A stretch of DNA of 64,000 nt from Variovorax sp. Root318D1. GTDB taxonomy: Bacteria; Pseudomonadota; Gammaproteobacteria; Burkholderiales; Burkholderiaceae_C. The notes beneath the pieces are model-generated. The model was not told the DNA's origin and made no database searches. It saw only the letters and a program-made list of their open reading frames with translations. The DNA lies in assembly GCF_001424835.1 (NCBI RefSeq), contig NZ_LMCQ01000004.1, positions 65,707 through 129,706 on the forward strand, written 5' to 3'. Position numbers and translations under genes: made by a program. Positions 16,112 through 27,786 of the stretch are shown in pieces (position 1 is the stretch's first letter; each line of letters begins with the position of its first letter).

Positions 16112-17050
16112 TTAGGCCGAACCGTTGAATTCATGGCGCAGGGTTTGCACCAGTTCGGCGACCGGCGGGACCGACGTGACGCCTGATACGGAATGGCCCG
16201 CGCTCCAAAGATCAGCCCACCGCTGGATCACTGCACCTTCAGAGCCCCCGCCGAACCTGTTTCGGGCTTCCTGCACGGACACTGTTTCATCAAGCGCGGC
16301 GGGATCCAATCCAACTTGAACGATGGACGGCTTTAGAAAGTTGGCCGGCAACCCCGTAAAGGCGCGCGTGGCCATGACATCGTCCAGCGAACTTCGCTCG
16401 AGCATCTGTTTGTAGGGAACCGAGCCCAGGCTTTCCTGGGTAGCGATGAATCGGGTCCCCATGGAGCCCAGGTCGCAACCCAACACCGAGGCAGCCTTGA
16501 GCGCAAACCCGTCCGACAGTCCACCCGCCAGAACGATGGGACCATCGAACAAGGCGCGCACCGCTCGAACGAACGCGAACGGGTTGGCCCAGCCCGTATG
16601 TCCGCCAGCGCCTGCCGTGAGCAGGACCAGTCCATCGGCCCCCGCTTCGAGGGCGCGTTCCGCGTGATGTACCGATGCCACGTCGGCGAGCACCAGGCAA
16701 CCACCATCGTGCAGGGTCGGGATCACCGAGGCAGGCGAACCCACGCTGGTGATGACCAACTCGGTTCGATGCCGAACGATCAATTCGACCTCCGCCTTCA
16801 GCCGTGCAGGGTCCCGCCGCATGATGAGGTTCGGGCAGCAAGGTGCGCTACGGCGGTCCCCAGCGGCTTCCCGGTTCAGCCGCTGGAGCCAAGCTTCGAA
16901 CTCTTCAAGCGAGGCGCAGTTTGCCGTGGGAAAAGCACCAATGACGCCCGCCGCACAAGCCGCCGACACGAGTTCGATGCCAGAGACGCGCAGCATCGGC
17001 GCCGCGATCACGGGCACCACGAGGCGGTCCATGAAAGGTAGTCGCTTCAT
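16112..17050 (-). CDS. Nitronate monooxygenase-fold FMN protein (first of a tandem pair)
   Basis: A 312-residue TIM-barrel flavoprotein of the 2-nitropropane dioxygenase family. It starts with VPVIAAPMLRVSGIELVSAA; the active-site His lies in LTAGAGGHTGWANPFAF and the FMN phosphate site in IVLAGGLSDGFALKAA and LGSMGTRFIATQES. True family members oxidise nitronates; others in CoA-ester degradation clusters act as dehydrogenases on CoA thioesters (IpdC type). ATG 17050 is chosen because it overlaps the upstream stop (ATGA). It is the last gene of the minus-strand operon. Confidence 0.85.
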   Translation of the reverse strand: MKRLPFMDRLVVPVIAAPMLRVSGIELVSAACAAGVIGAFPTANCASLEEFEAWLQRLNREAAGDRRSAPCCPNLIMRRDPARLKAEVELIVRHRTELVITSVGSPASVIPTLHDGGCLVLADVASVHHAERALEAGADGLVLLTAGAGGHTGWANPFAFVRAVRALFDGPIVLAGGLSDGFALKAASVLGCDLGSMGTRFIATQESLGSVPYKQMLERSSLDDVMATRAFTGLPANFLKPSIVQVGLDPAALDETVSVQEARNRFGGGSEGAVIQRWADLWSAGHSVSGVTSVPPVAELVQTLRHEFNGSA

Positions 17051-18039
17051 TCTTGTTCCAGTGAAGAAAGGCAGGCGATCGACGCCCGCGCCTCCTCGAG
17101 CAAATCGGCCACGATGGATTTCAGTGGTTCTATGCGTTTCGCAAACGCAATCGACGGACCGAGCGAGAGCATTCCGCGCTGCCAGTCCCCATTGGCATAG
17201 CAATGGTCGCGCGCCGTCTGGCCGCTGATCAGTTCGCCGAAGACCGCATGGTCGGCCGCACCCGCGCGTTCGATCTCATCGATCTGGCGGGCGGTGTCGT
17301 TGCGCAGCACGCGCCAGGTGTTGCCCAGTGATTGCAGCAGGCGCACGGTCGAGTGCTCGTCGCAATTCAGCAGGTGCTCTTTGTAGCGGCGGTGCGCGCC
17401 GATCTCTTCGCACACCAGGAAGCGGCTACCGATCAGCACGCCGTCGAGCCCCTGTGCGAGCACCGCCGCGAGTTGCCGTCCTCGGCCGATGCCGCCGCCC
17501 AGCACGACGGGGACGCGAAACCGATCGACGGCCAACGCTCCCATCAGCATGGTGGGCAACTCGTTGGTCCCTGGGTGGCCGCCTTCTTCCATCCCCACCA
17601 GGGCGACGGCATCGGCACCTGCGCGCTCGGCCGACAACGCATGGCGGATGCTCGAGGACTTGTGGACCACGATGGCACTGGCCTTGTGGAGTGTGTCGAT
17701 CAGTTCGACTGGGGCATGCCCGGCCGTCTCGAAGATGCGAACGCCATGGGCCAACGCCATGTCCAGCCAGCGTTGCACAGCTGCGTTCGCCTCAGGACGG
17801 CTCGACAGCGTCAGGTTCACGCCGAACGGCCTACCCCCGGTCAGGTCCGAGCAGAGTCGCAATTCATTGCCGAAGGCTTCGTCGCTGTGAAAGGAGCGCG
17901 GCGTGATGAAGCCCATGCACCCCGCATTGACGAGCGCGGCCACATAGCGTGCGTCCGACAGCCACATGAGCCCCCCGCCCAGGATCGGATGCTCAATCCC
18001 CAGCAGCCGGGTGATCCGCGTGCGCAGCGGCGGGGCCAC
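17047..18039 (-). CDS. Nitronate monooxygenase-fold FMN protein (second of the pair)
   Basis: About 330 residues, same family as its downstream neighbour but clearly diverged: TRLLGIEHPILGGGLMWLSD at the N-terminus, catalytic His in VGMEEGGHPGTNELPTML, FMN site VVLGGGIGRGRQLAAVLA and GVLIGSRFLVCEE. The GTG at 18037-18039 starts 4 nt past the CaiB stop and leaves a normal lead; an ATG at 18087 would overlap the CaiB gene by 44 nt. Two adjacent but non-identical NMO-fold enzymes suggest two related flavin steps or a hetero-oligomer. Confidence 0.8.
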   Translation of the reverse strand: MAPPLRTRITRLLGIEHPILGGGLMWLSDARYVAALVNAGCMGFITPRSFHSDEAFGNELRLCSDLTGGRPFGVNLTLSSRPEANAAVQRWLDMALAHGVRIFETAGHAPVELIDTLHKASAIVVHKSSSIRHALSAERAGADAVALVGMEEGGHPGTNELPTMLMGALAVDRFRVPVVLGGGIGRGRQLAAVLAQGLDGVLIGSRFLVCEEIGAHRRYKEHLLNCDEHSTVRLLQSLGNTWRVLRNDTARQIDEIERAGAADHAVFGELISGQTARDHCYANGDWQRGMLSLGPSIAFAKRIEPLKSIVADLLEEARASIACLSSLEQE

Positions 18040-18043
18040 AGAT

Positions 18044-19150
18044 TCAAACCAGGTTGCTGCCGAGTGCGGGCGCGGCGCCCAGACCACCCGCCACCACGCC
18101 GCTCATGGGAACGGGATAGCGCACCGTGGGCATCACCGCCCCCTGCTCGAACTTGCCGCGCAGCGCGAACTGGGGCAGCGCGGCGAGCTGAGTCGGTTCC
18201 ACCACCGGTGCGACGGGCACATCGTGCCGGCGCAGCAGCTCGAAGGCATCGTCCGCATCCATACCTTCGAGCACTTCGGCAATGCGGCGGTTGATGGCTT
18301 CAGCGGCCAGCTTGCGCGCCTTGTGCGAACCATGGGCCTCATCGCCGAATGGCGCCAGGTCGAGCGCGGCGCAAAGGCGCTTCCAAAAGTGGTCTTCCAG
18401 TGCGGCGACCGACAAATAGCGCCCGTCGCGACAGCGAAACGCGCCGTAGGCAGCCTTGACCAGCGTGGTCTCGCGCTGCGCCTCCAGCGAGCTCGCCCCG
18501 GCTTCGCGATAGGCACCGAGACGCGGGTTCATCCAGTGGAGTGCGCAGTCGGCGAGGGAGACATCCAGGTGCTGGCCCAGGCCCGTGCCTTCGCGTTGGA
18601 GAATGGCGGCCAGAGTGGACGACAGGGCATACATAGCGCCGCACAGATCCGCCACTGGCAGCCCGAAGCTTTGCGCCGGGCCGCCGCCGGGCGCACCGGA
18701 AACCGCCAGCACACCGGCCGCCGCCAGGTAGTTGATGTCGTGTCCCGGCAGGTCGGCCCACGGGCCGGTCTGCCCATAGCCGCTAAGCGACACGTACACA
18801 AGCCGGGGGCATGTTTCGCGCAGCGAGGCGGCATCCAGGCCCAGGCGCGCCATCACGCCGGGCCGGTAGGATTCGACCAGAACATCAGCCGTCGCAAGAA
18901 GATCGCGCACCTTCCTGCGCTGGGCCTCGTCCTTCAGATCGACCAGCAGGCTTTGCTTGCCGCGGTTCACGGCCTCGAACGCGCCCATCCCCAGCCTGCG
19001 CGCATTGTCCCCAAAAGGCGGTCGCTCGATCTTGATGACGCGCGCGCCCATTTCGGCCAGGCTTTGCGTGAAGAACGGACCGGGCAGCAGTTCGCTGAAG
19101 TCGACGACGGTGATGCCGTCCAGCGGCGGGCGAGCGGACGGCACCGTCAT
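18044..19150 (-). CDS. CaiB/BaiF family CoA-transferase
   Basis: A 368-residue type III CoA-transferase. The N-terminus LDGITVVDFSELLPGPFFTQ and ARVIKIERPPFGDNAR are typical; the catalytic Asp is in FGLPVADLCGAMYALSS and the following GLGQHLDVSLADCAL is conserved. A covalent aspartyl-CoA intermediate moves CoA between carboxylates; an alpha-methylacyl-CoA racemase role is also possible in this family. ATG 19150 overlaps the upstream stop by 4 nt. With the ADP-forming ligase next door it gives the pathway two ways to activate its acid. Confidence 0.9.
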   Translation of the reverse strand: MTVPSARPPLDGITVVDFSELLPGPFFTQSLAEMGARVIKIERPPFGDNARRLGMGAFEAVNRGKQSLLVDLKDEAQRRKVRDLLATADVLVESYRPGVMARLGLDAASLRETCPRLVYVSLSGYGQTGPWADLPGHDINYLAAAGVLAVSGAPGGGPAQSFGLPVADLCGAMYALSSTLAAILQREGTGLGQHLDVSLADCALHWMNPRLGAYREAGASSLEAQRETTLVKAAYGAFRCRDGRYLSVAALEDHFWKRLCAALDLAPFGDEAHGSHKARKLAAEAINRRIAEVLEGMDADDAFELLRRHDVPVAPVVEPTQLAALPQFALRGKFEQGAVMPTVRYPVPMSGVVAGGLGAAPALGSNLV

Positions 19151-21273
19151 GCGACCACCTCTTGCGCGGTGCGCTCGATGATGACGGCGTCCAGCGGCAG
19201 CGCGCCTTCGCCCACGGCACCCACCCATACCGGATTAAGGTCCATTTCCTCGATCCTGTCCGCGTTTTGCACAACGAACGCCGAGATGCGCAGCAGCAGC
19301 GCTTCGAGTGCCTCGACGTCGGCGGGCGGGCGGCCCCGAGCACCGGCGAGCAGCGGAAAACAGCGCATCTCGCGGATCATTGCTGCGGCGTCACCCGCGC
19401 CCAGCGGCAGCATGCGGCGAGTGACATCGCGCAGGATTTCCACATAGATGCCACCAAGGCCAAACGTCATCACATGACCGAACACCGGATCGCGCGTAAC
19501 GCCGACCATCAACTCCAGGCCGCCTTGCGGCGCCATTTTCTCGATCAGCAACCCCTCAATCGCAGCGTCGGGCCGATGCCGCGCAACGGACGCCATGATG
19601 CCCCGCCACGCCTCGCCGACCTGCTGCGCATCCTGCAAGCCCACCTGCACGCCGCCGATATCGGACTTGTGCACGATCTGCTCGCTCGCGATCTTGGCGA
19701 CTACTGGGTAGCCCATGCCATCAGCCATTGAAAGCGCTTCTTCCAATGTCCTGGCCAATGCATTCGGCAACAGGCGCACACCAGCAGCAAGAAGCTGCTG
19801 CTTGGCCTGCGCCTCGGACAGGGAGCGCGTGGCAAGCGCCGCAGGCAGCGCTGCGGTCGGGGTTGCGGCGTCCACCAATCGGTGCGCGCGCTTCCAGCGC
19901 CCGTATTCCACCCAGCGCCGGATGGCCTTGATCCCCTTGCCTACGGAACGGGGCGGCGCAAAGCCGTGCTCGACCAGCATGCGATAACCCTCGCCCATGC
20001 GGTCGCTCATCCAAATCGGCACGATGGGCGTCGCACGCCCTTTTTGTGCCGCGATGATGGTGCGAGCCAGCTGGATCGTCGTGTCGCCGTAGTCCAGCGC
20101 GATCGGCACGATCACACATCCGAGGTTGGGGTCGCTGGCGACCGCGCCGAGAGTCTTCTCAATCAGGCTCGCGTCGCTCAGCACCGCTGCGGTGGTGTCC
20201 ACCGGGTTGTCGATGGCGGCGAAGTCCGGCAGGTGATTGCGAAGCAGCTCGCGGGTGTGCGGGGCGAACTGCGCGAGCATCAGGCCAGAGGAGCCCACGG
20301 CGTCCGCCGTGAGGGCGGCCGTTCCGCCCGAGGAGGTGTAGATGGCGATGCCCTCGCTGGCGTCGGGTTCGGCACGCGCGAACAACCAGGCCGTGTCCAC
20401 GAGCTCGTCGATGTCGTCGACCTCGATCACACCGAACTGCCGGAACACGGCACTGTTGACCTCTGCCGAACCGGTCAACGATGCGGTGTGCGACTGCGCC
20501 GCTCGCTGTCCATACTCCGACTTGCCCACTTTCAGCGCGATGACGGGCTTCCCGTTGGCCGCCGCCCGCTGGACTGCCGCCACGAATTTGGCACCATCCT
20601 TGATGCCTTCCAGGAGTGTGACGATCACCTTGATGTCGGGGGCATCGGCCATGTAGTGGATGAAGTCGGCCACCTGCAGATCGACCTCGTTGCCGGTCGA
20701 AGCCCATAGGCCAATGCCGATGCCGCGGTCCATTGCCTGCATCACGTTGCGGCCCAAGCCGCCGCCTTGCGTGGCCAAGCCGATGGGGCCTTTGACCAGG
20801 TCGTGCGGAAACGAGGGAGAGAACGTCAGACCCAGACGCTGGTTGACGTTGGTCAGGCCCGGGCAGTTCGGGCCGTACACGCGCATCCCGCCGGCGTCGG
20901 CAATTTCCTTCAGGCGCAACTGGGCGCGCTCGCCTTCCTCCCCGGCCTCGCCGAAACCGGATGTCAGGACGATGGCGAAGAGCACACCGCGGGCTGCGCA
21001 TTCCTCGGCAACGGCCAGCACACCGGCCGCCGGCACGACGATCACCGCGAGATCTGGTGTGGCGGGCAAGGCGGCGACGCTCGGCCAGCAGCGTTGCCCG
21101 CGGATTTCGGCCTTGCTGGAATTGACGAGGTAGACGTCGCCACCGAATTCGGAGTGGTCCAGCAGATTGGTCAGCGTTCGCTCGCCAATGCTGTGCGGGC
21201 GGTCCGATGCGCCGACCAGCGCGATGGAACGCGGACGGATAAGCCTGGACAGGTCGGTCAACTTTGACTCCAT
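19147..21273 (-). CDS. ADP-forming acyl-CoA synthetase (acetate-CoA ligase family)
   Basis: A 708-residue fused alpha-beta NDP-forming enzyme. Residues about 1-230 form the CoA-binding domain (SIALVGASDRPHSIGERTL), the middle is the ligase-CoA domain with the phospho-His in AQSHTASLTGSAEV, and about 480-708 is the ATP-grasp domain (YPVVAKIASEQIVHKSDIGG, VFGHVMTFGLGGIYVEIL). It makes acyl-CoA from an acid with ATP to ADP, through a phospho-His. It is often linked to aromatic or phenylpropanoid acid degradation (pimeloyl/feruloyl-type). It starts 11 bp downstream of the acyl-CoA dehydrogenase gene. Confidence 0.9.
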   Translation of the reverse strand: MESKLTDLSRLIRPRSIALVGASDRPHSIGERTLTNLLDHSEFGGDVYLVNSSKAEIRGQRCWPSVAALPATPDLAVIVVPAAGVLAVAEECAARGVLFAIVLTSGFGEAGEEGERAQLRLKEIADAGGMRVYGPNCPGLTNVNQRLGLTFSPSFPHDLVKGPIGLATQGGGLGRNVMQAMDRGIGIGLWASTGNEVDLQVADFIHYMADAPDIKVIVTLLEGIKDGAKFVAAVQRAAANGKPVIALKVGKSEYGQRAAQSHTASLTGSAEVNSAVFRQFGVIEVDDIDELVDTAWLFARAEPDASEGIAIYTSSGGTAALTADAVGSSGLMLAQFAPHTRELLRNHLPDFAAIDNPVDTTAAVLSDASLIEKTLGAVASDPNLGCVIVPIALDYGDTTIQLARTIIAAQKGRATPIVPIWMSDRMGEGYRMLVEHGFAPPRSVGKGIKAIRRWVEYGRWKRAHRLVDAATPTAALPAALATRSLSEAQAKQQLLAAGVRLLPNALARTLEEALSMADGMGYPVVAKIASEQIVHKSDIGGVQVGLQDAQQVGEAWRGIMASVARHRPDAAIEGLLIEKMAPQGGLELMVGVTRDPVFGHVMTFGLGGIYVEILRDVTRRMLPLGAGDAAAMIREMRCFPLLAGARGRPPADVEALEALLLRISAFVVQNADRIEEMDLNPVWVGAVGEGALPLDAVIIERTAQEVVA

Positions 21274-21284
21274 GAGATTTTCTT

Positions 21285-22433
21285 TCAGGCGATGGCCGAG
21301 ATACCCAGGATCTCGCGGCCGGCAATCAAGGTCTGCACTTCCGTCGTGCCCTCGGGAATCGTGCCGCCGCGCGTGTCGCGGAAGATGCGCTCGATCGGGT
21401 AGTCCGTCGCGTAGCCCAAGCCGCCGTGCACCTGCAACGCCATGCTGGCCACTTCGTGCGCGGCCTCCGTGGCGTAGAGCTTGGCGATCGAGCAGGCGGT
21501 GCGCGCATCCCGGTTCGCGTCGAGCGCCGCTGCCGCGCGCAGGCCCAGGGCGCGCGCCGCCTCGACCCGTATCGTCATGTCGACGATGAGCTTTTGCACC
21601 AGTTGAAAGCTGCCGATGGGTTTGCCGAACTGCGTCCGTGTGCGGGCGTAGTCGATGGACAGATCGAGTGCCGATTGGGCCGCGCCCACCGCGCCCATGG
21701 CAATGTTCACGCGCGCACTGTCCAGGCCGATCAGCATTTTCTTCAGCGCATTGCCTTCCTCGCCGAGCAGGTTCTCGCGCGGAACCTTCACGTTGTCGAA
21801 GCCGAGTTCGGCAGTGCCGGTGCTGCGCAGGACCATGGTGTCGACGCTGCGCATCTCATAGGGAGACACCTCGCGCTCGACAAGGAACGTCGAAAGTTGC
21901 CCCTGGCAATCGGGGCTGAAGGTGCGCGCAACGACGATACCGAAGTCGGCGAATGCGCCGTTGGTGATCCACAGCTTGCGGCCATTGAGCACGTAGTGAT
22001 CGCCCTGCAGGTCGGCCCGTGTCTGCACCTGCGCGATGTTCGAGCCGCAACCCGGCTCGCTGATGGCATTGAAGACGCGCCGCTCGGAAGCCAGCAAGGG
22101 CTTCAGGAAGCGCTCCCGCTGTGCCTCGGTTGCTTCTGCGGCCAGTTTGTTGATGGCGGCGTTGGTGATGTTCACCATGGTCCGCAACGACAGCCATGCA
22201 TAGCCGGCCTCCTCCATGAGCAGGGCCCAGGTCATCTGGTCCATGTCCATGCCGCCCAGCGCCTCGGGCAACCGGCCGCCGATGTAGCCGAACTGGGACA
22301 GCTCCTTGAGGAGCTCGAAGGGAAAAGTCTTGTCCTTGTCGTGCTGGGCGACCCGTGGTGCGACTTCACTTTTCATGAAGCGGCGCACGCTGTCGCGCAG
22401 CAGTTCTTGTTCGGCATCCGGTACGAAATACAT
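21285..22433 (-). CDS. Acyl-CoA dehydrogenase
   Basis: A 382-residue flavoenzyme introducing an alpha-beta double bond into an acyl-CoA. The FAD/acyl signatures are NAISEPGCGSNIAQVQTRA, KLWITNGAFADFGIVVAR and VHGGLGYATDYPIERIFRD; the C-terminal IPEGTTEVQTLIAGREIL carries the Glu in the EGT position used as base in medium-chain enzymes. Electrons should pass to ETF, not encoded here. It is 41 bp downstream of the IclR gene and the first catabolic gene of the minus-strand operon. Confidence 0.92.
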   Translation of the reverse strand: MYFVPDAEQELLRDSVRRFMKSEVAPRVAQHDKDKTFPFELLKELSQFGYIGGRLPEALGGMDMDQMTWALLMEEAGYAWLSLRTMVNITNAAINKLAAEATEAQRERFLKPLLASERRVFNAISEPGCGSNIAQVQTRADLQGDHYVLNGRKLWITNGAFADFGIVVARTFSPDCQGQLSTFLVEREVSPYEMRSVDTMVLRSTGTAELGFDNVKVPRENLLGEEGNALKKMLIGLDSARVNIAMGAVGAAQSALDLSIDYARTRTQFGKPIGSFQLVQKLIVDMTIRVEAARALGLRAAAALDANRDARTACSIAKLYATEAAHEVASMALQVHGGLGYATDYPIERIFRDTRGGTIPEGTTEVQTLIAGREILGISAIA

Positions 22434-22474: not shown

Positions 22475-23284
22475 CTACGCGGGGCGAGATTCCTTGGACC
22501 CGGCGCCGCGCCGGGTGGGTGCGGTGCGCGGCGGAAGTGAGGGGCTGCGAGGATGGAAGACCAATGCCTGCACCTCCTTCAGCGCCTGCAGGCAGGCGTC
22601 GCGGTGCTGGCGCATGCGGTCGGTCGGTCCGGCAATGGAGAGGGCCAACGGCTCATCTCCGACGTAGCCGGCCACCGCGAGTGCCGCCAGGCCATCGAAG
22701 CCTTCGTTCTCGACCCACATCCAGCCTTGTTGGCGCGCCTGTTCGACCTGCGCTTCCAGAACCGCGAGATCGGTGATGGAGCCCGCGGCGATCTGCTTCA
22801 GGGGCTTGAGCCGCAATTGGCGCGCAGCCTCCTCGGGGGTGCCGAGAGACAACTCGGCCTTGCCGAGCGCGGACACGTGCAAAGCGATCTTGTTGCCAAC
22901 GTTCCCCACGTAGCGCAGCGGATGAGTGCCTTCGGCAAAGGCCAGCACCTTCACCACGCCGCCTTCCAGGCGACCGCACATGCCGGTCTCGCCGGTCTTG
23001 TCGCGCAGCAGTTCGCAGGCTTCCGAAGCGACCGCATAGAGCGGATCGCCCGCAGAGATGTCCTTCGCAATCGTCAGCAACCGCGCCGTTGGATAGAACC
23101 GGCGGCTGCGTGCCGTGCGCAGCAGGTAGCCCAGCTCGTGCAGCGTGTGCAGCAGATCGGAACAACTGCTCTCAGGCAAGTCCATGAGGCGCGCGAGATC
23201 CGAGTTGGACAGTTCGCGGCGCTCACGAGCGAAGACTTCGAGCAAAGACATGGTGCGGGCGGCAGCAGGAACAAGTGTGGGCAC
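22475..23284 (-). CDS. IclR family transcriptional regulator
   Basis: A 269-residue IclR protein. Winged helix: TMSLLEVFARERRELSNSDL and LPESSCSDLLHTLHELGYLL (recognition helix about residues 35-54). Effector domain: CGRLEGGVVKVLAFAEGTHP, ALHVSALGKAELSLGTPEEA. The C-terminal tail (PRSPSLPPRTAPTRRGAGSK) is unusually basic and Pro-rich. The gene lies at the head of the minus-strand operon and faces the plus-strand operon across a 182-bp spacer with a dyad, so it probably controls both and itself. Confidence 0.9.
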   Translation of the reverse strand: MPTLVPAAARTMSLLEVFARERRELSNSDLARLMDLPESSCSDLLHTLHELGYLLRTARSRRFYPTARLLTIAKDISAGDPLYAVASEACELLRDKTGETGMCGRLEGGVVKVLAFAEGTHPLRYVGNVGNKIALHVSALGKAELSLGTPEEAARQLRLKPLKQIAAGSITDLAVLEAQVEQARQQGWMWVENEGFDGLAALAVAGYVGDEPLALSIAGPTDRMRQHRDACLQALKEVQALVFHPRSPSLPPRTAPTRRGAGSKESRPA

Positions 23285-23317: not shown

Positions 23318-23466
23318 TCATAGCGAAGGAAATCCATATAACTCAGTACGCAAAACCGACTCAGATCGCGATCGGTCAGTGACTCTTTCCTATTGCATTT
23401 CTACGAGAGGTTGAAGTATTCTACGATCAGTCGCGATTCAGCGGCAACAAATAAATGGAGACAAAC

Positions 23467-24447
23467 ATGCGCAGAGGTCTGCAGAAACTGGTTGTTCTTG
23501 TGGTCGGGTCACTGGCGCTGGGGACGCTCCACGCCGCTGGCGAAGCCTGGCCGACGCGGTCCATCACCTTTGTCGTGCCATTCACCCCGGGCGGCATCAC
23601 CGACAACACCTCGCGCTTGCTGGCCAAGCTGCTCGGAGCGCAGTTGGGCCAGACCGTGCTCGTGGACAACCGGCCTGGTGCTGGTGGATCGATCGGCGTG
23701 GCAACCGCCGCGCGCCAGGCACCGGACGGTTACACCCTGATCTACGGTACTCAGGGCACGCATGGCGCCAATCTCGCGCTCTACAAGAACGTGGGCTACG
23801 ACCCTGTGAAAGATTTCGTGCCCGTTCACGCACTGTCGGAAACGCCGTTGATGCTGGCGACCCATCCCGCGCGGCCCTACAAGACGGTTTCCGAACTGAT
23901 CGCCTTTGCCAAAGCCAATCCCGGCAAAGTGACCTTCGGTTCCGCCGGGCCAGGGACGGGGACGCACTTGACGGCCGAGCTGTTCCAGACCGCGGCCGGC
24001 ATCAAGATGACTCACATTCCTTACAAGGGAAGCAGTCCTGCTTTGACCGACCTGATGGCTGGGAACATCGATGTGATGTTCGACTACCCGGCGGTGATGC
24101 TGCCCTTCATCCAGGCACAAAAGCTCAAGGCATTGGCGGTCACCGCCAAGAAGCGGCTTGCCAGTGTCCCGGACGTTCCGGTGCTCAGTGAATTTGGCCT
24201 CCCCAACGCCGAATCAACCGCCTGGGGCGCAGTGTTCGTCCCGGCGAAGACACCCCCTGAGATCGTGAAGCGGCTGGGCGATGAAATCGCGAAAGCCATC
24301 GTCCATCCCGAAATGCTGCAGAGCACCGAGAAATTCGGCAGCGTCCCACTCACAGGCCTGCGCGACGAGAAGCTCGGTGCCTTCGTGAAGTCGGAGATGA
24401 CGCGCTGGCGTGAGGTCGTGCAGCAGTCCGGCGCCAAGCTCGACTGA
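23467..24447 (+). CDS. Bug/TctC-family periplasmic solute receptor
   Basis: A receptor of about 326 residues with a signal peptide (KLVVLVVGSLALGTLHAAGE) and Bug motifs: ITFVVPFTPGGITDNTSRLL, QTVLVDNRPGAGGSIGVATA, THIPYKGSSPALTDLMAGNI. ATG 23467 is preferred over 23455 because GGAG then sits 6 nt upstream. It should capture the pathway's carboxylate substrate; no TctA/TctB genes are near. First gene of the plus-strand operon, opposite IclR. Confidence 0.9.
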   Translation: MRRGLQKLVVLVVGSLALGTLHAAGEAWPTRSITFVVPFTPGGITDNTSRLLAKLLGAQLGQTVLVDNRPGAGGSIGVATAARQAPDGYTLIYGTQGTHGANLALYKNVGYDPVKDFVPVHALSETPLMLATHPARPYKTVSELIAFAKANPGKVTFGSAGPGTGTHLTAELFQTAAGIKMTHIPYKGSSPALTDLMAGNIDVMFDYPAVMLPFIQAQKLKALAVTAKKRLASVPDVPVLSEFGLPNAESTAWGAVFVPAKTPPEIVKRLGDEIAKAIVHPEMLQSTEKFGSVPLTGLRDEKLGAFVKSEMTRWREVVQQSGAKLD

Positions 24448-24495: not shown

Positions 24496-24927
24496 ATGAC
24501 CGAACAACAGACTACCTTGAAGCCGCTGCATCCCACGCTCTACGAGCTGGCAGAGGACGGCCATTCACTCGATTTCTTCTTCGTGCAGTGCGGTGCCTGC
24601 GGCGCTGTGAGCTTTCCGGCCAACGTGCCGGGCTGCACGCACTGCGGTGACCCGCTGGTCGACGCGCAGAAGCTGAGCCGCCCAGGCGGTGGTGAGTTGC
24701 TGGAGTACGTCACGCTCCACGTTCCACTGGTACCGGGCATGGCCGCGCCCAGCATCGCAGGGGATATACGCATCGCCGACGGGATCGTCGAGGAAGGGGT
24801 GATATGGGCCAATGACGAGACCTCGCTGCGCCCAGGCATGACGCTTCGAGCGGTTGCCGAGGTGCGTGAAGCCCAGGGTGTCTATGCCTGCCGCTTCGTA
24901 CCAGCCGACGCCAAGGTGACGCCATGA
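24496..24927 (+). CDS. DUF35/OB-fold zinc-ribbon protein, partner of the thiolase-like gene
   Basis: The 143-residue protein has an N-terminal helix, a rubredoxin-like zinc ribbon with CGAC and CTHC pairs (about residues 33-54, VQCGACGAVSFPANVPGCTH), then an OB-fold. Such proteins bind thiolase-fold enzymes; in steroid side-chain degradation the DUF35 domain of ChsH2 holds the aldolase Ltp2. Here the stop overlaps the start of the thiolase-like gene (ATGA), as expected for a complex. It probably positions acyl-CoA rather than catalysing. Confidence 0.85.
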   Translation: MTEQQTTLKPLHPTLYELAEDGHSLDFFFVQCGACGAVSFPANVPGCTHCGDPLVDAQKLSRPGGGELLEYVTLHVPLVPGMAAPSIAGDIRIADGIVEEGVIWANDETSLRPGMTLRAVAEVREAQGVYACRFVPADAKVTP

Positions 24928-26096
24928 GTGGTAACACGCTTCCGGCCAGCAACTGGATTGACGCCAGCGGCGGCGTCTACATCGCCGGCATCGGCTTGCA
25001 CCCCTATCAGTTCCCCAGCGAGACGCCCTACACCCACTTGGGCCTGACGGCTGTACGCGCAGCGCTGGACGACGCGGGCCTGCGCTGGAACCAGGTGCAG
25101 AGTGCCTATGTTGGCACGACCTCGATCGGCATGGCCGCCGGGCGCGTCATGTTGCGCCACCTGGGCTCGACCGGCTTGGGCGTGACACAGGTCGAGAACG
25201 CTTCCGCCTCGGGCTCGTTCGCATTCCGACAGGCCTGCATGGAGATTGCGACCGGCATGAGCGACGCGGTCCTGGCCGTGGGCGTGGACAAGCACGGCGA
25301 CGGACGCCGCGCGGCGAACAAGGACGGTTTGGACCGGTTGAGCGACACGGCCACCATCCCTGCCGTCAAGTTCGCGATGATGGCGCGCACCTATCTGCGT
25401 GAGCGGGGTGCGAGCGTGGCAGAAATGGCGGGGGTTGCCGTCAAGAACCACGGCAATGCGGCACGCAATCCCTTCGCCCAGTTCCGCAAGCCGCGCACGC
25501 TCGAGCAGGTGCTGGCGTCGCCACGCGTGGCGGGAGACCTCACCGTGCAGCAGTGCTGCCCCCGCGGCGAGGGTGCGGCCGCGGTGCTGCTCGTGTCCGG
25601 ACAAGCCATCCAGCGGATGGGCCTTGATGCGCGTCGGTGTGTGCGCGTGCGCGCCTCGGTGGCCGGCAGCGAGCGCGACGAGCGCCACTATGGCGACGCC
25701 GCCATCGAACTCGTGCGCTCCAGTGCCCGGGCCGCCTTCGAACAGGCGGGCATCGCTCCAACGGAACTCGACTTGCTCGAACTGCACGACGCATTCTCGG
25801 TGGAGGAGCTGCTGTACAGCGAGGCCATCGGCGTCTGCGAAGCCGGCGAGGGGGCGCGGTTCTTGGCGCGCGGCGACTCGCAGATCGGCGGACGCTGCGC
25901 CATCAACGCCTCGGGCGGCTTGATCGGCATGGGTCATCCGCTGGGCCCCACGGGCATCGGCCAGTTGGCAGAACTGACGCGTCAACTGCGCGGCGAGGCA
26001 GAAGGGCGACAGCAGCCGCAAGCCCGTTGGGGCATGGCGCACATGATCGGCCTGGGCTCTGTGTCGATCGCGCACGTGCTCTCCGCTTCCACCTGA
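24924..26096 (+). CDS. SCP-x-type thiolase-fold protein lacking the nucleophilic Cys
   Basis: A 390-residue thiolase-superfamily protein of the SCP-x/lipid-transfer branch: ELHDAFSVEELLYSEAIG, INASGGLIGMGHPLGPTGIG (with the His of GHPLG) and QLAELTRQLRGEAEG. In the position of the acyl-accepting Cys (SCP-x NNNCATGS) it reads VENASASGSFAFRQACME, i.e. Ser instead of Cys. That argues against ordinary thiolysis and for a retro-aldolase or retro-Claisen variant acting with the DUF35 protein, as in Ltp2-ChsH2. The expected reaction is release of a short acyl-CoA or ketone from a beta-hydroxyacyl-CoA. The family is certain, the reaction inferred. Confidence 0.85.
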   Translation: MSGNTLPASNWIDASGGVYIAGIGLHPYQFPSETPYTHLGLTAVRAALDDAGLRWNQVQSAYVGTTSIGMAAGRVMLRHLGSTGLGVTQVENASASGSFAFRQACMEIATGMSDAVLAVGVDKHGDGRRAANKDGLDRLSDTATIPAVKFAMMARTYLRERGASVAEMAGVAVKNHGNAARNPFAQFRKPRTLEQVLASPRVAGDLTVQQCCPRGEGAAAVLLVSGQAIQRMGLDARRCVRVRASVAGSERDERHYGDAAIELVRSSARAAFEQAGIAPTELDLLELHDAFSVEELLYSEAIGVCEAGEGARFLARGDSQIGGRCAINASGGLIGMGHPLGPTGIGQLAELTRQLRGEAEGRQQPQARWGMAHMIGLGSVSIAHVLSAST

Positions 26097-26129
26097 GCGC
26101 CGACGCGTTTCAACACGAGGAACACCTTC

Positions 26130-26939
26130 ATGACTTCCACCGACATTCAAGACCTGGGCACGCTGCTCTACGAAGTGCAGGGCCAGGTTGCCGTGATCAC
26201 GCTGAACCGCCCCGACCGCATGAACACCCTGGGCGGCACGATGAAGCCCGACCTGGCGCGCGCATTCTTCGAGTTGGCGAGAGGAGACGAGCGTGTGCGC
26301 GCGGTGCTGATCACCGGCAGCGGTGACCGCGCCTTCTGCGCCGGCGCCGACATCAAGGAGCGCGCCACCGACGTGGTACGAGGCACCGAGTACTTCGTGC
26401 GCCAGAAGGCCACGCACGATCTGTTTCGCAACATCGAAGAATTCGAGAAGCCGGTCGTCGCGGCCATCAATGGCGTGGCGCTGGGCGGCGGCCTGGAGAT
26501 TGCGCTGTGCTGCGACATCCGGCTGGCCGCGTCGAGCGCGCGCTTCGGCCTGCCCGAGATCAAGCTCGGTGTGATCCCCGCTGCCGGCGGCACCCAGCGG
26601 TTGCCGCGGCTCATCGGTGAGGCGCGCGCCAAGGAATTGATCCTCACGGCCGACCTCATCGACGCCGAAACGGCACATCGCTACGGCCTCGTGAGCCGCG
26701 TGCTGCCGCCCGCCGAACTGATGCCGGCCTCACTAGAGCTGGCCCGGCGCATCGCGCAGCACCCACCGCTCGCTGTGCGTTTCGCCAAGCGCGCCATCAA
26801 CCGCGGGATGCAAACGGACCTGGATTCAGGGCTCGAGTACGAGCGCTACGCCGCCGCCATGATCGTCGACAGCGAGGACCGCGCCGAGGGCATGCGCGCC
26901 TTCGTCGAGAAGCGCGAACCCCGCTTCACGGGACGCTGA
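26130..26939 (+). CDS. Enoyl-CoA hydratase/isomerase family (crotonase)
   Basis: A 269-residue crotonase. The oxyanion-hole segments are RAFCAGADIKERATD and NGVALGGGLEIALCCDIRLA; both catalytic Glu positions are present (GGGLEIA and FGLPEIKLGVIPAAGGTQRL). It hydrates the enoyl-CoA made by the acyl-CoA dehydrogenase of the divergent operon to the 3-hydroxyacyl-CoA, which would be the natural substrate of the DUF35/thiolase-like pair or of the following SDR. 33 bp separate it from the thiolase gene. Confidence 0.92.
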   Translation: MTSTDIQDLGTLLYEVQGQVAVITLNRPDRMNTLGGTMKPDLARAFFELARGDERVRAVLITGSGDRAFCAGADIKERATDVVRGTEYFVRQKATHDLFRNIEEFEKPVVAAINGVALGGGLEIALCCDIRLAASSARFGLPEIKLGVIPAAGGTQRLPRLIGEARAKELILTADLIDAETAHRYGLVSRVLPPAELMPASLELARRIAQHPPLAVRFAKRAINRGMQTDLDSGLEYERYAAAMIVDSEDRAEGMRAFVEKREPRFTGR

Positions 26940-26970: not shown

Positions 26971-27786
26971 ATGCAACTCGGATTGAACGGACAAGTGGCA
27001 CTCGTCACCGGCGGAGGCCAAGGCGTTGGCCGGCAAATCTGCATCGAGCTCGCGGCCGAGGGGGCCCAGGTCGTCGTTAACGACCTGTTCGCCGATCGCG
27101 CCGAGGCCGTGGCGGGCGAGATCACGGCAGCGGGCGGCCGCGCTTGGGCCGCGCCCGCGGACATCACGAAGCAGGATGAGGTCGAGGGCATGGTTGCACG
27201 CGCTGCCAGCCATTTCGGGACGCCGGTCACCGTGCTGGTGAACAACGCCGGCATCATTCCCGAACGCCGCGAAAAAGGCGGCCGCACACCGCCGTTCCTT
27301 GATATGCCCGTCGCCGACTGGGCCAAGATCGTGAATCTCAATGTCTACGGCACCATGCATTGTTGTCGCGCCGTGCTGCCTGGCATGGTCGAACGCAGGA
27401 GCGGACGCATCGTCAACATCATCTCTGAAGCCGGGCGCATCGGCGAAGCGAACATGGCGGTCTATTCGGGTGCGAAGGCGGCCATCGCCGGCTTTGCCAA
27501 GGCGCTGGCGCGCGAGCACGGGCGCCATGCGATCACCGTCAACTCGGTGGCGCTAGGCGCGGTATCGCACGAAGGCATCAAGGACGGTCCGCTGAACGTC
27601 AACGCCACGCTGGAGAACAACGAACTGCTGGGCAAGATGCTCGGCGCCTACCCGATCTCCAAGGGCGTCGGCCGGCTCTCTCGTCCGACCGATGTGTCTG
27701 GATTGGTGACCTTCCTGGCCTCGGACCGAGCGCTGTTCATCACAGGACAGACGATTGGTGCCTCAGGCGGCTTCACCATGATTTGA
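26971..27786 (+). CDS. SDR family oxidoreductase
   Basis: A 271-residue classical SDR: cofactor loop LVTGGGQGVGRQICIELA, NNAG motif VLVNNAGIIPERREKGG, catalytic Ser in NIISEAGRIGE and Tyr/Lys in AVYSGAKAAIAG. The extended loop after NNAG and the C-terminus TGQTIGASGGFTMI are as in FabG-like 3-hydroxyacyl-CoA dehydrogenases. A 3-hydroxyacyl-CoA dehydrogenase role fits the order hydratase then SDR. It starts 31 bp after the hydratase. Confidence 0.88.
   Translation: MQLGLNGQVALVTGGGQGVGRQICIELAAEGAQVVVNDLFADRAEAVAGEITAAGGRAWAAPADITKQDEVEGMVARAASHFGTPVTVLVNNAGIIPERREKGGRTPPFLDMPVADWAKIVNLNVYGTMHCCRAVLPGMVERRSGRIVNIISEAGRIGEANMAVYSGAKAAIAGFAKALAREHGRHAITVNSVALGAVSHEGIKDGPLNVNATLENNELLGKMLGAYPISKGVGRLSRPTDVSGLVTFLASDRALFITGQTIGASGGFTMI

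Follow-up and report, generated by a model that had tools for sequence, protein, structure and literature searches.

A 64,000-nucleotide stretch of DNA from Variovorax sp. Root318D1 (contig NZ_LMCQ01000004.1, positions 65,707 to 129,706; hereafter the window, in which coordinates are given unless stated otherwise) carries two overlapping genes for a DUF35 protein and a thiolase-fold protein in which serine (Ser94) occupies the place of the nucleophilic cysteine, the hallmark of thiolases. The analyses revealed that this Ser-for-Cys replacement is a conserved family trait and not an artefact, and that the pair is a widely conserved Ser-for-Cys variant of the DUF35-linked thiolases, probably acting as a retro-Claisen enzyme. 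The DUF35 gene (24496..24927, + strand) encodes a partner subunit of 143 amino acids with a zinc ribbon (CxxC-x11-CxxC) and an OB fold, which matched Pfam zf-ChsH2 (27.3 bits, cut-off 23.2), OB_ChsH2_C (21.2 bits, under the cut-off of 27.1) and the ChsH2 (DUF35) chain 6ok1_B (E 8e-4). The thiolase-fold gene (24924..26096, +) encodes 390 amino acids with Pfam Thiolase_N, Thiolase_C and Thiolase_C_1 domains. Both open reading frames (ORFs) proved real, with the stop/start overlap ATGA at 24924-24927 on the + strand that an initial annotation of this DNA had described. Within the sequence VENASASGS (residues 90-98), the ENASASGS motif (residues 91-98) lies at 25194..25217 (+), the Ser94 codon TCC being at 25203-25205. 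The HDAF motif (residues 288-291; 25785..25796, +) has His where the aldolases Ltp2 and Sal carry their Tyr base, while GHPLGPTG (residues 337-344; 25932..25955, +), which begins with GHPLG (residues 337-341), retains His338 and includes Pro342, a residue peculiar to the Ser family.

In the phmmer alignments, Ser94 was found opposite the Cys in both BbsB (VQSACSAG) and the SCP2-thiolase (VNNNCSTG), which bears out the earlier proposals of Ser for the catalytic Cys and of a retained GHPLG. A scan of contigs with a four-row alignment returned 384 relatives; the top 80 of these, a choice that favours close kin, were fetched (53-96% identity, several phyla), and the closest named record among these was Caenimonas soli (96% identity). 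Residue 94 was Ser in the window and in 80 of 80 fetched relatives, and a Cys at this position after alignment, the observation that the initial annotation had named as counting against it, was looked for and found in 0 of 81 rows. As the scan used the patterns [VA]AVKNH[GN]N and HDAF[SAT][VI]EE, the constancy of HDAF..EE, and with it that of His288 (81 of 81 rows), arises partly by construction, whereas that of Ser94 does not. The ENASASGS region, His338 and Gly376/378 were likewise conserved across phyla.

A sequencing error or decayed gene was ruled out, since the same Ser occurs in independent genomes, 0 of 80 matches carried a stop codon and only TCN codons were found at the site (TCG 48, TCC 25, TCT 5 and TCA 2 among the 80 homologs). 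An alignment shift hiding a Cys was also ruled out, with Cys at position 98 (VESASASGC) in 2 of 81 rows and at position 94 in none. Cys211, the only Cys invariant in a 49-row alignment of the main branch, is present in many Cys thiolases too, and it was not found at that place in the three rows of a distant Ser branch. In 398 genomes of the phylum, with five candidates scored per genome, members at E 1e-70 or better were found in four, including the window's own genome; these amounted to five places (583-646 bits), all with Ser, and the next best place scored 332 bits. Plasmid copies had Ser in 4 of the 4 sequences read, out of at least seven plasmid matches above 50% identity, and the plasmid records name the protein just 'thiolase family protein'. 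A single scan of viral contigs for a viral origin returned no relatives. One contig titled as a Desulfovibrionaceae metagenome-assembled genome (L053, WRJY01000273.1) shared 82% identity and synteny with Burkholderiales loci, so its assignment to the Desulfovibrionaceae may reflect mis-binning.

A second Ser branch, ENASATGS, comprises the place that scored 332 bits together with two relatives, with Ser in 3 of 3 rows and 35-39% identity to the window protein. By phmmer, the window protein matched BbsB (7pxp_C, E 3e-64) and SCP2-thiolase (3e-62), and more weakly the Ltp2 aldolase (4e-23) and the Sal chain 9myr_A (3e-20). An AlphaFold2 single-chain model (predicted local distance difference test score 92.7) showed the same two groups among the structural matches listed, with SCP2-thiolase at Z 57.0 and BbsB at 56.2, followed by Ltp2 at 45.8 and Sal at 45.1. 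SCP2/BbsB-type thiolases were nearest in both fold and sequence, in keeping with the SCP-x architecture named at the outset. In a 67-row tree, rooted on five aldolase-type rows and issued with a program warning of long branches, both Ser branches were united in a single clade (100/99) lying among the Cys thiolases, and the five aldolase-type rows stood apart (100/100).

The residue signature agreed with this placement. In Ltp2 and Sal, Gly occupies the nucleophile position and a Tyr in YDHF/YDCY is described as the catalytic base (PMC12329534). In the comparison of solved chains, CtSal showed Gly, YDCY and GQS and TcLtp2 showed Gly, YDHF and AYI at the thiolase Cys, HDxF and GHP sites. Ser, HDAF and GHP stand at these sites in the window protein, which therefore lacks the nucleophilic Cys of the CxS/CxG position but retains both thiolase histidines (His288 and His338). 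The second acid of the aldolases, Tyr344 in Ltp2 or Cys304 with a GHP-place Gln in Sal, is replaced by Ala290 and His338. At positions 94/288/290/338 the Ser family reads Ser/His/Ala/His. Forty control loci were picked from match lists. The 20 aldolase-type loci, matches to a Sal-like protein, all had Gly/Tyr; the 20 thiolase-type loci, matches to the window protein or its profile, all had Cys/His/(Cys or Ala)/His, 18 of the 20 with the SCP2-type HDCF. The window pair scored below the cut-offs of the BbsAB equivalogs NF053628/NF053627 (239 bits vs 750; 24.7 bits vs 250). When 92 Ser rows (89 main, 3 distant) were compared with 39 Cys rows, His26, Asp122, Pro146, Gly215, Glu250, Glu294, Pro342 and Met374 co-varied with Ser nearly always in both branches, Pro342 being present in 92 of 92 Ser rows and 0 of 39 Cys rows.

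Among the aldolase-type controls, 18 of 20 (L184 and L186-L202, from Burkholderiales) combined Gly/Tyr with His at the GHP place, which judged from the alignment is a combination unlike either characterised aldolase; loss of GHP is thus not universal outside Ltp2 and Sal. Beyond the window, its own genome encodes a 4u4e-like protein (C4:132290-133342), an SCP2-thiolase (C4:139328-140482) and a Sal-like aldolase paralog (C8:140046-141110); the 4u4e-like and Sal-like proteins both have Gly/Tyr, and the SCP2-thiolase is ordinary.

Genomic context analyses revealed that DUF35 lies directly upstream of the Ser-thiolase in 79 of the 79 loci (of 80) with at least 600 bases upstream, with the four-Cys zinc pattern in 66 of these 79 matches, and a DUF35-thiolase-fold complex is therefore expected. 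In the window, the pair is followed by an enoyl-CoA hydratase (ECH; 26130..26939, +; Pfam ECH_1, 240.8 bits, both catalytic Glu present) and by a short-chain dehydrogenase/reductase (SDR; 26971..27786, +; Pfam adh_short), presumed to be a 3-hydroxyacyl-CoA dehydrogenase, whose top NCBIfam match was BadH TIGR03206 (212 bits, under the cut-off of 431). Flanks of 5 kb or more on both sides were available for 69 of the 80 loci; among these, SDR was found within 5 kb in 65, ECH in 58 and both in 57, compared with 10, 1 and 1 of 20 Cys-thiolase control loci and 9, 8 and 4 of 19 aldolase-type control loci (20 fetched, one flank too short). Near relatives inflate the 69-locus figures; with the count limited to the more distant ones (L071-L123; 53-71% identity, L076 80%), SDR was found in 42, ECH in 34 and both in 34 of 45. 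Annotated Cys relatives on plasmids (L128-L131) also had SDR and hydratase beside the DUF35-thiolase in 4 of 4 cases, so that this gene set is a mark of one type of genuine thiolase locus and not of the Ser family alone.

Of 65 hydratase rows, 64 were ungapped at the Glu pair on which ECH catalysis depends, and all 64 carried it; the Ser-Tyr-Lys triad of SDR catalysis was present in 73 of 73 rows. When four main-branch genomes (5 clusters) were tested, the top matches to the window SDR adjoined the Ser-thiolase in all four, ahead of the other SDRs found. A second thiolase-like ORF within 5 kb was found in 0 of 69 loci; over all 80 loci, the only others, beyond 5 kb, were a 4u4e-like ORF in L055 and a FadA-like ORF in L080, and an apparent second thiolase in L094 was rejected as a split match of that locus's central ORF. 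With hydratase and dehydrogenase nearby and no second thiolase within 5 kb, the expected substrate is a 3-ketoacyl-CoA. The initial annotation had placed an acyl-CoA dehydrogenase (ACAD) and a hydratase beside the pair, which was confirmed, with the ACAD on the opposite strand; it had also proposed that these supply a 3-hydroxyacyl-CoA substrate, and this part was not supported: an SDR is conserved near the hydratase and points to a 3-keto substrate. Many loci further contained ACAD, CoA ligases, a CoA-transferase, a nitronate-monooxygenase-like flavoprotein and binding proteins of the tripartite tricarboxylate transporter (TTT) type. A copy of the module was also observed on a 19.9-kb plasmid of Comamonas sp. 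C11, typed as mobilizable (L124, NZ_CP101748.1), where IclR, a hypothetical protein in the DUF35 place, the Ser-thiolase, hydratase, SDR, a flavin reductase, a TTT binding protein and an AMP-binding protein occur together.

Taken with the conserved gene set, the DUF35-thiolase may well catalyse the C-C cleavage step in a bbs-like set of beta-oxidation enzymes, working by retro-Claisen cleavage through an acyl-Ser94 with release to CoA or water, and this reading is held with about even confidence. A carboxylic acid would be taken up and activated by a CoA ligase or CoA-transferase, and its CoA ester would be desaturated by ACAD, hydrated by ECH and oxidised by SDR to a 3-ketoacyl-CoA, which the DUF35-thiolase would cleave. 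Since Ser takes the nucleophile's place and both His are retained, retro-Claisen cleavage via O-acyl-Ser94 would be the simplest mechanism: Ser94, near His338, would attack the 3-keto carbon with the help of an oxyanion hole that includes His288, acetyl-CoA or another acyl-CoA would depart, and the O-acyl-Ser ester would be handed to CoA or water. The nucleophilic role of Ser94, the roles of the histidines, the acceptor and the substrate are all inferred from sequence comparisons. A precedent for a Ser nucleophile is DpsC, a thiolase-fold acyltransferase with Ser-His-Asp (PMC12664062). A weak one is the SCP2-type thiolase Hc-DAF-22, in which C84S is reported to have caused a 62% loss of activity in refolded protein and worm rescue failed (PMC5682392).

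Several observations weigh against this mechanism. The C88S replacement inactivated the DUF35-linked acylases PhlC (PMC6392133) and CsATase (PMC12955522), and Ser is thus no free substitute for Cys. Among 63 main-branch loci with long flanks, SDR was not found in L052, L106, L122 and L123, nor ECH in L082, L086, L094, L095, L106, L122 and L123, and SDR alone also occurs near half of the control loci. The genomes of the distant branch lacked an SDR of the window type (0 of 3 at 1e-30); in one of them (L178, 8642-14602) the order is ACAD-ACAD-DUF35 (OB-fold)-small ORF-Ser-thiolase-MaoC-MaoC, while L224 has two ACADs and DUF35, and L225 has DUF35 and two AMP ligases. The 67-row tree has long branches, and an approximately unbiased (AU) test did not reject the Ser rows and aldolases on one side (logL 16.0 lower, p 0.142). 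The tree was accordingly dropped as an exclusion of any aldolase relation, and kinship alone does not settle thiolase against aldolase.

As a tentative possibility, still on the side of Ser94 as nucleophile, the proteins would form a broad family of DUF35-coupled retro-Claisenases that pass the O-acyl-Ser to water (or CoA), in effect beta-ketoacyl-CoA hydrolases. The substitutions at His26, Asp122, Pro146, Gly215, Glu250, Glu294, Pro342 and Met374 would then make Ser work. BadI is the enzyme that opens the ring of alicyclic 2-ketoacyl-CoA, and such a hydrolase would perhaps take its place.

The initial annotation had predicted a retro-aldolase by analogy with ChsH2-Ltp2. The DUF35-thiolase-fold pairing on which it drew was confirmed, but the inference from it was not: the Gly/Tyr signature and the loss of GHP seen in Ltp2 and Sal are not matched, and DUF35 pairing is common to true thiolases (BbsAB and the archaeal thiolase/HMGCS), hence not indicative of an aldolase. 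From the residues compared, retro-aldol cleavage by Ltp2 analogy is not favoured. An aldolase with its own catalytic set, in which His288 would act as base on the 3-hydroxyl and Ser94 would only position the substrate, is also unlikely. The loss of Cys, which speaks against ordinary Cys thiolysis, the DUF35 partner and the AU test are compatible with it, as is the distant branch, since the ACAD/DUF35/MaoC order without SDR in L178 resembles that of the igr operon of Ltp2. Against it stand the missing Tyr base, the absence of Gly at position 94, the intact GHP and the SDR conserved in the main branch. Aldehyde dehydrogenase genes, which a ketone product would not need, were also scarce: 2 of 69 loci had one within 5 kb, and 8 of 63 had one when the distance was widened to 8 kb. 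Retro-aldol cleavage by a Ser/His/His site is possible at least in the distant branch.

It is quite unlikely that Ser94 moves an acyl group from CoA to a non-CoA acceptor in a transfer or condensation reaction. DpsC (PMC12664062) and PhlC, itself a DUF35-linked thiolase-fold acylase (PMC6392133), are models for such chemistry, but PhlC requires its Cys, and genes for an uptake protein, a ligase, ACAD, a hydratase and a dehydrogenase give the set a catabolic appearance. Improbable, too, is an enzyme that decarboxylates a beta-keto acid or handles its enolate, in which Ser would block condensation; TbSLP, which has no thiolase Cys residues, weakly decarboxylates malonyl-CoA, but CtSal is described as having no such activity (PMC12329534), and C-C cleavage is a step that the gene set requires and for which the 5-kb flanks offer no other thiolase. 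A catalytically dead scaffold or CoA-binding pseudo-enzyme is very improbable: the inactive C88S acylases (PMC6392133, PMC12955522) and MsTLP1, a CoA-binding thiolase-like protein described as having neither the motifs nor thiolase activity (PMC3406046), which shows that non-thiolase relatives exist, would suit it, but the active-site region is conserved across phyla and no spare thiolase was found within 5 kb in 69 of 69 loci.

Upstream of the pair, the window encodes a TctC/Bug-type TTT receptor for acid uptake (23455..24447, +; Pfam TctC, 247 bits) and an IclR-type regulator (22475..23284, -; Pfam IclR_C, HTH_IclR). ACAD (21285..22433, -; identified by Pfam, 70% identity to its counterpart in the syntenic locus L036), an ADP-forming acyl-CoA synthetase (19147..21273, -; Pfam Succ_CoA_lig, ATP-grasp_5) and a CaiB/BaiF-type CoA-transferase (18044..19228, -; Pfam CoA_transf_3; true start probably near 19150) form a divergent unit on the strand opposite to the DUF35-thiolase. 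Two adjacent nitronate-monooxygenase/FabK-like genes follow (16112-18087, -), one at 17047..18087 (-; Pfam NMO 153 bits; TIGR03151 179 bits, below the cut-off of 453) and one at 16112..17203 (-; NMO 99 bits; TIGR03151 84.5 bits, below the cut-off). Genes of this kind were found within 8 kb of the Ser-thiolase in 43 of 63 loci, and enoyl reduction may be part of the pathway. An antisense ORF of 598 amino acids (24882-26678, -) overlying the thiolase gene was taken as spurious, as is typical of GC-rich DNA.

A literature search, with most subscription papers outside its reach, found no report of a Ser-thiolase family. Titles of the structural matches include C-to-S variants of SCP2-thiolase, FadA5 and others made for crystallography; here the same change has been fixed by nature across phyla, with matching substitutions and in gene sets that lack another thiolase nearby. 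Should Ser94 be the nucleophile, a Ser-based C-C-cleaving branch would be added to the degradative thiolases, and natural Ser and Cys chemistry could be compared within one fold; if retro-aldol cleavage is right, its catalytic set would be unlike those of Ltp2 and Sal.

To our knowledge, neither the SCP2-thiolases nor DpsC has a DUF35 partner. The SCP2-thiolases (6HSJ/6HRV), the top structural match (Z 57), share the fold and the His pair with the window protein, but have a Cys nucleophile and HDCF, the Cys of which is a second catalytic Cys (PMC12329534). DpsC shares the thiolase fold and a natural Ser nucleophile, but belongs to the ketosynthase-III branch, has a Ser-His-Asp triad and acts on the acyl carrier protein (PMC12664062). 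The Friedel-Crafts acylase PhlABC also joins a DUF35 protein (PhlB) to a thiolase-fold subunit (PhlC; Cys88, His347), but differs in its essential Cys88, its third subunit PhlA and its role in synthesis rather than breakdown (PMC6392133). In ibuprofen degradation, IpfD/IpfE, termed a thiolase releasing propionyl-CoA (PMC9195938), is a thiolase-like pair in a catabolic cluster, compared here by description only. The IpfD record was not among the matches listed (60 of 570 and 60 of 313 plasmid records). IpfE is a DUF35 protein. The steroid aldolases ChsH2-Ltp2 and Shy-Sal (6OK1, 9MYR) resemble the window pair in DUF35 pairing, thiolase fold and absence of a nucleophilic Cys, and are unlike it in the Gly at the nucleophile position, the Tyr base of YDHF/YDCY and the lost GHP. 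The benzoylsuccinyl-CoA thiolase BbsAB (7PXP) has DUF35 and thiolase-fold subunits, HDAF and GHP as in the window, and differs in its Cys nucleophile, an identity of about 34% and a DUF35 match of only 15 bits by phmmer; its bbs operon contains ACAD, hydratase, SDR and CoA-transferase, as found around the window pair.

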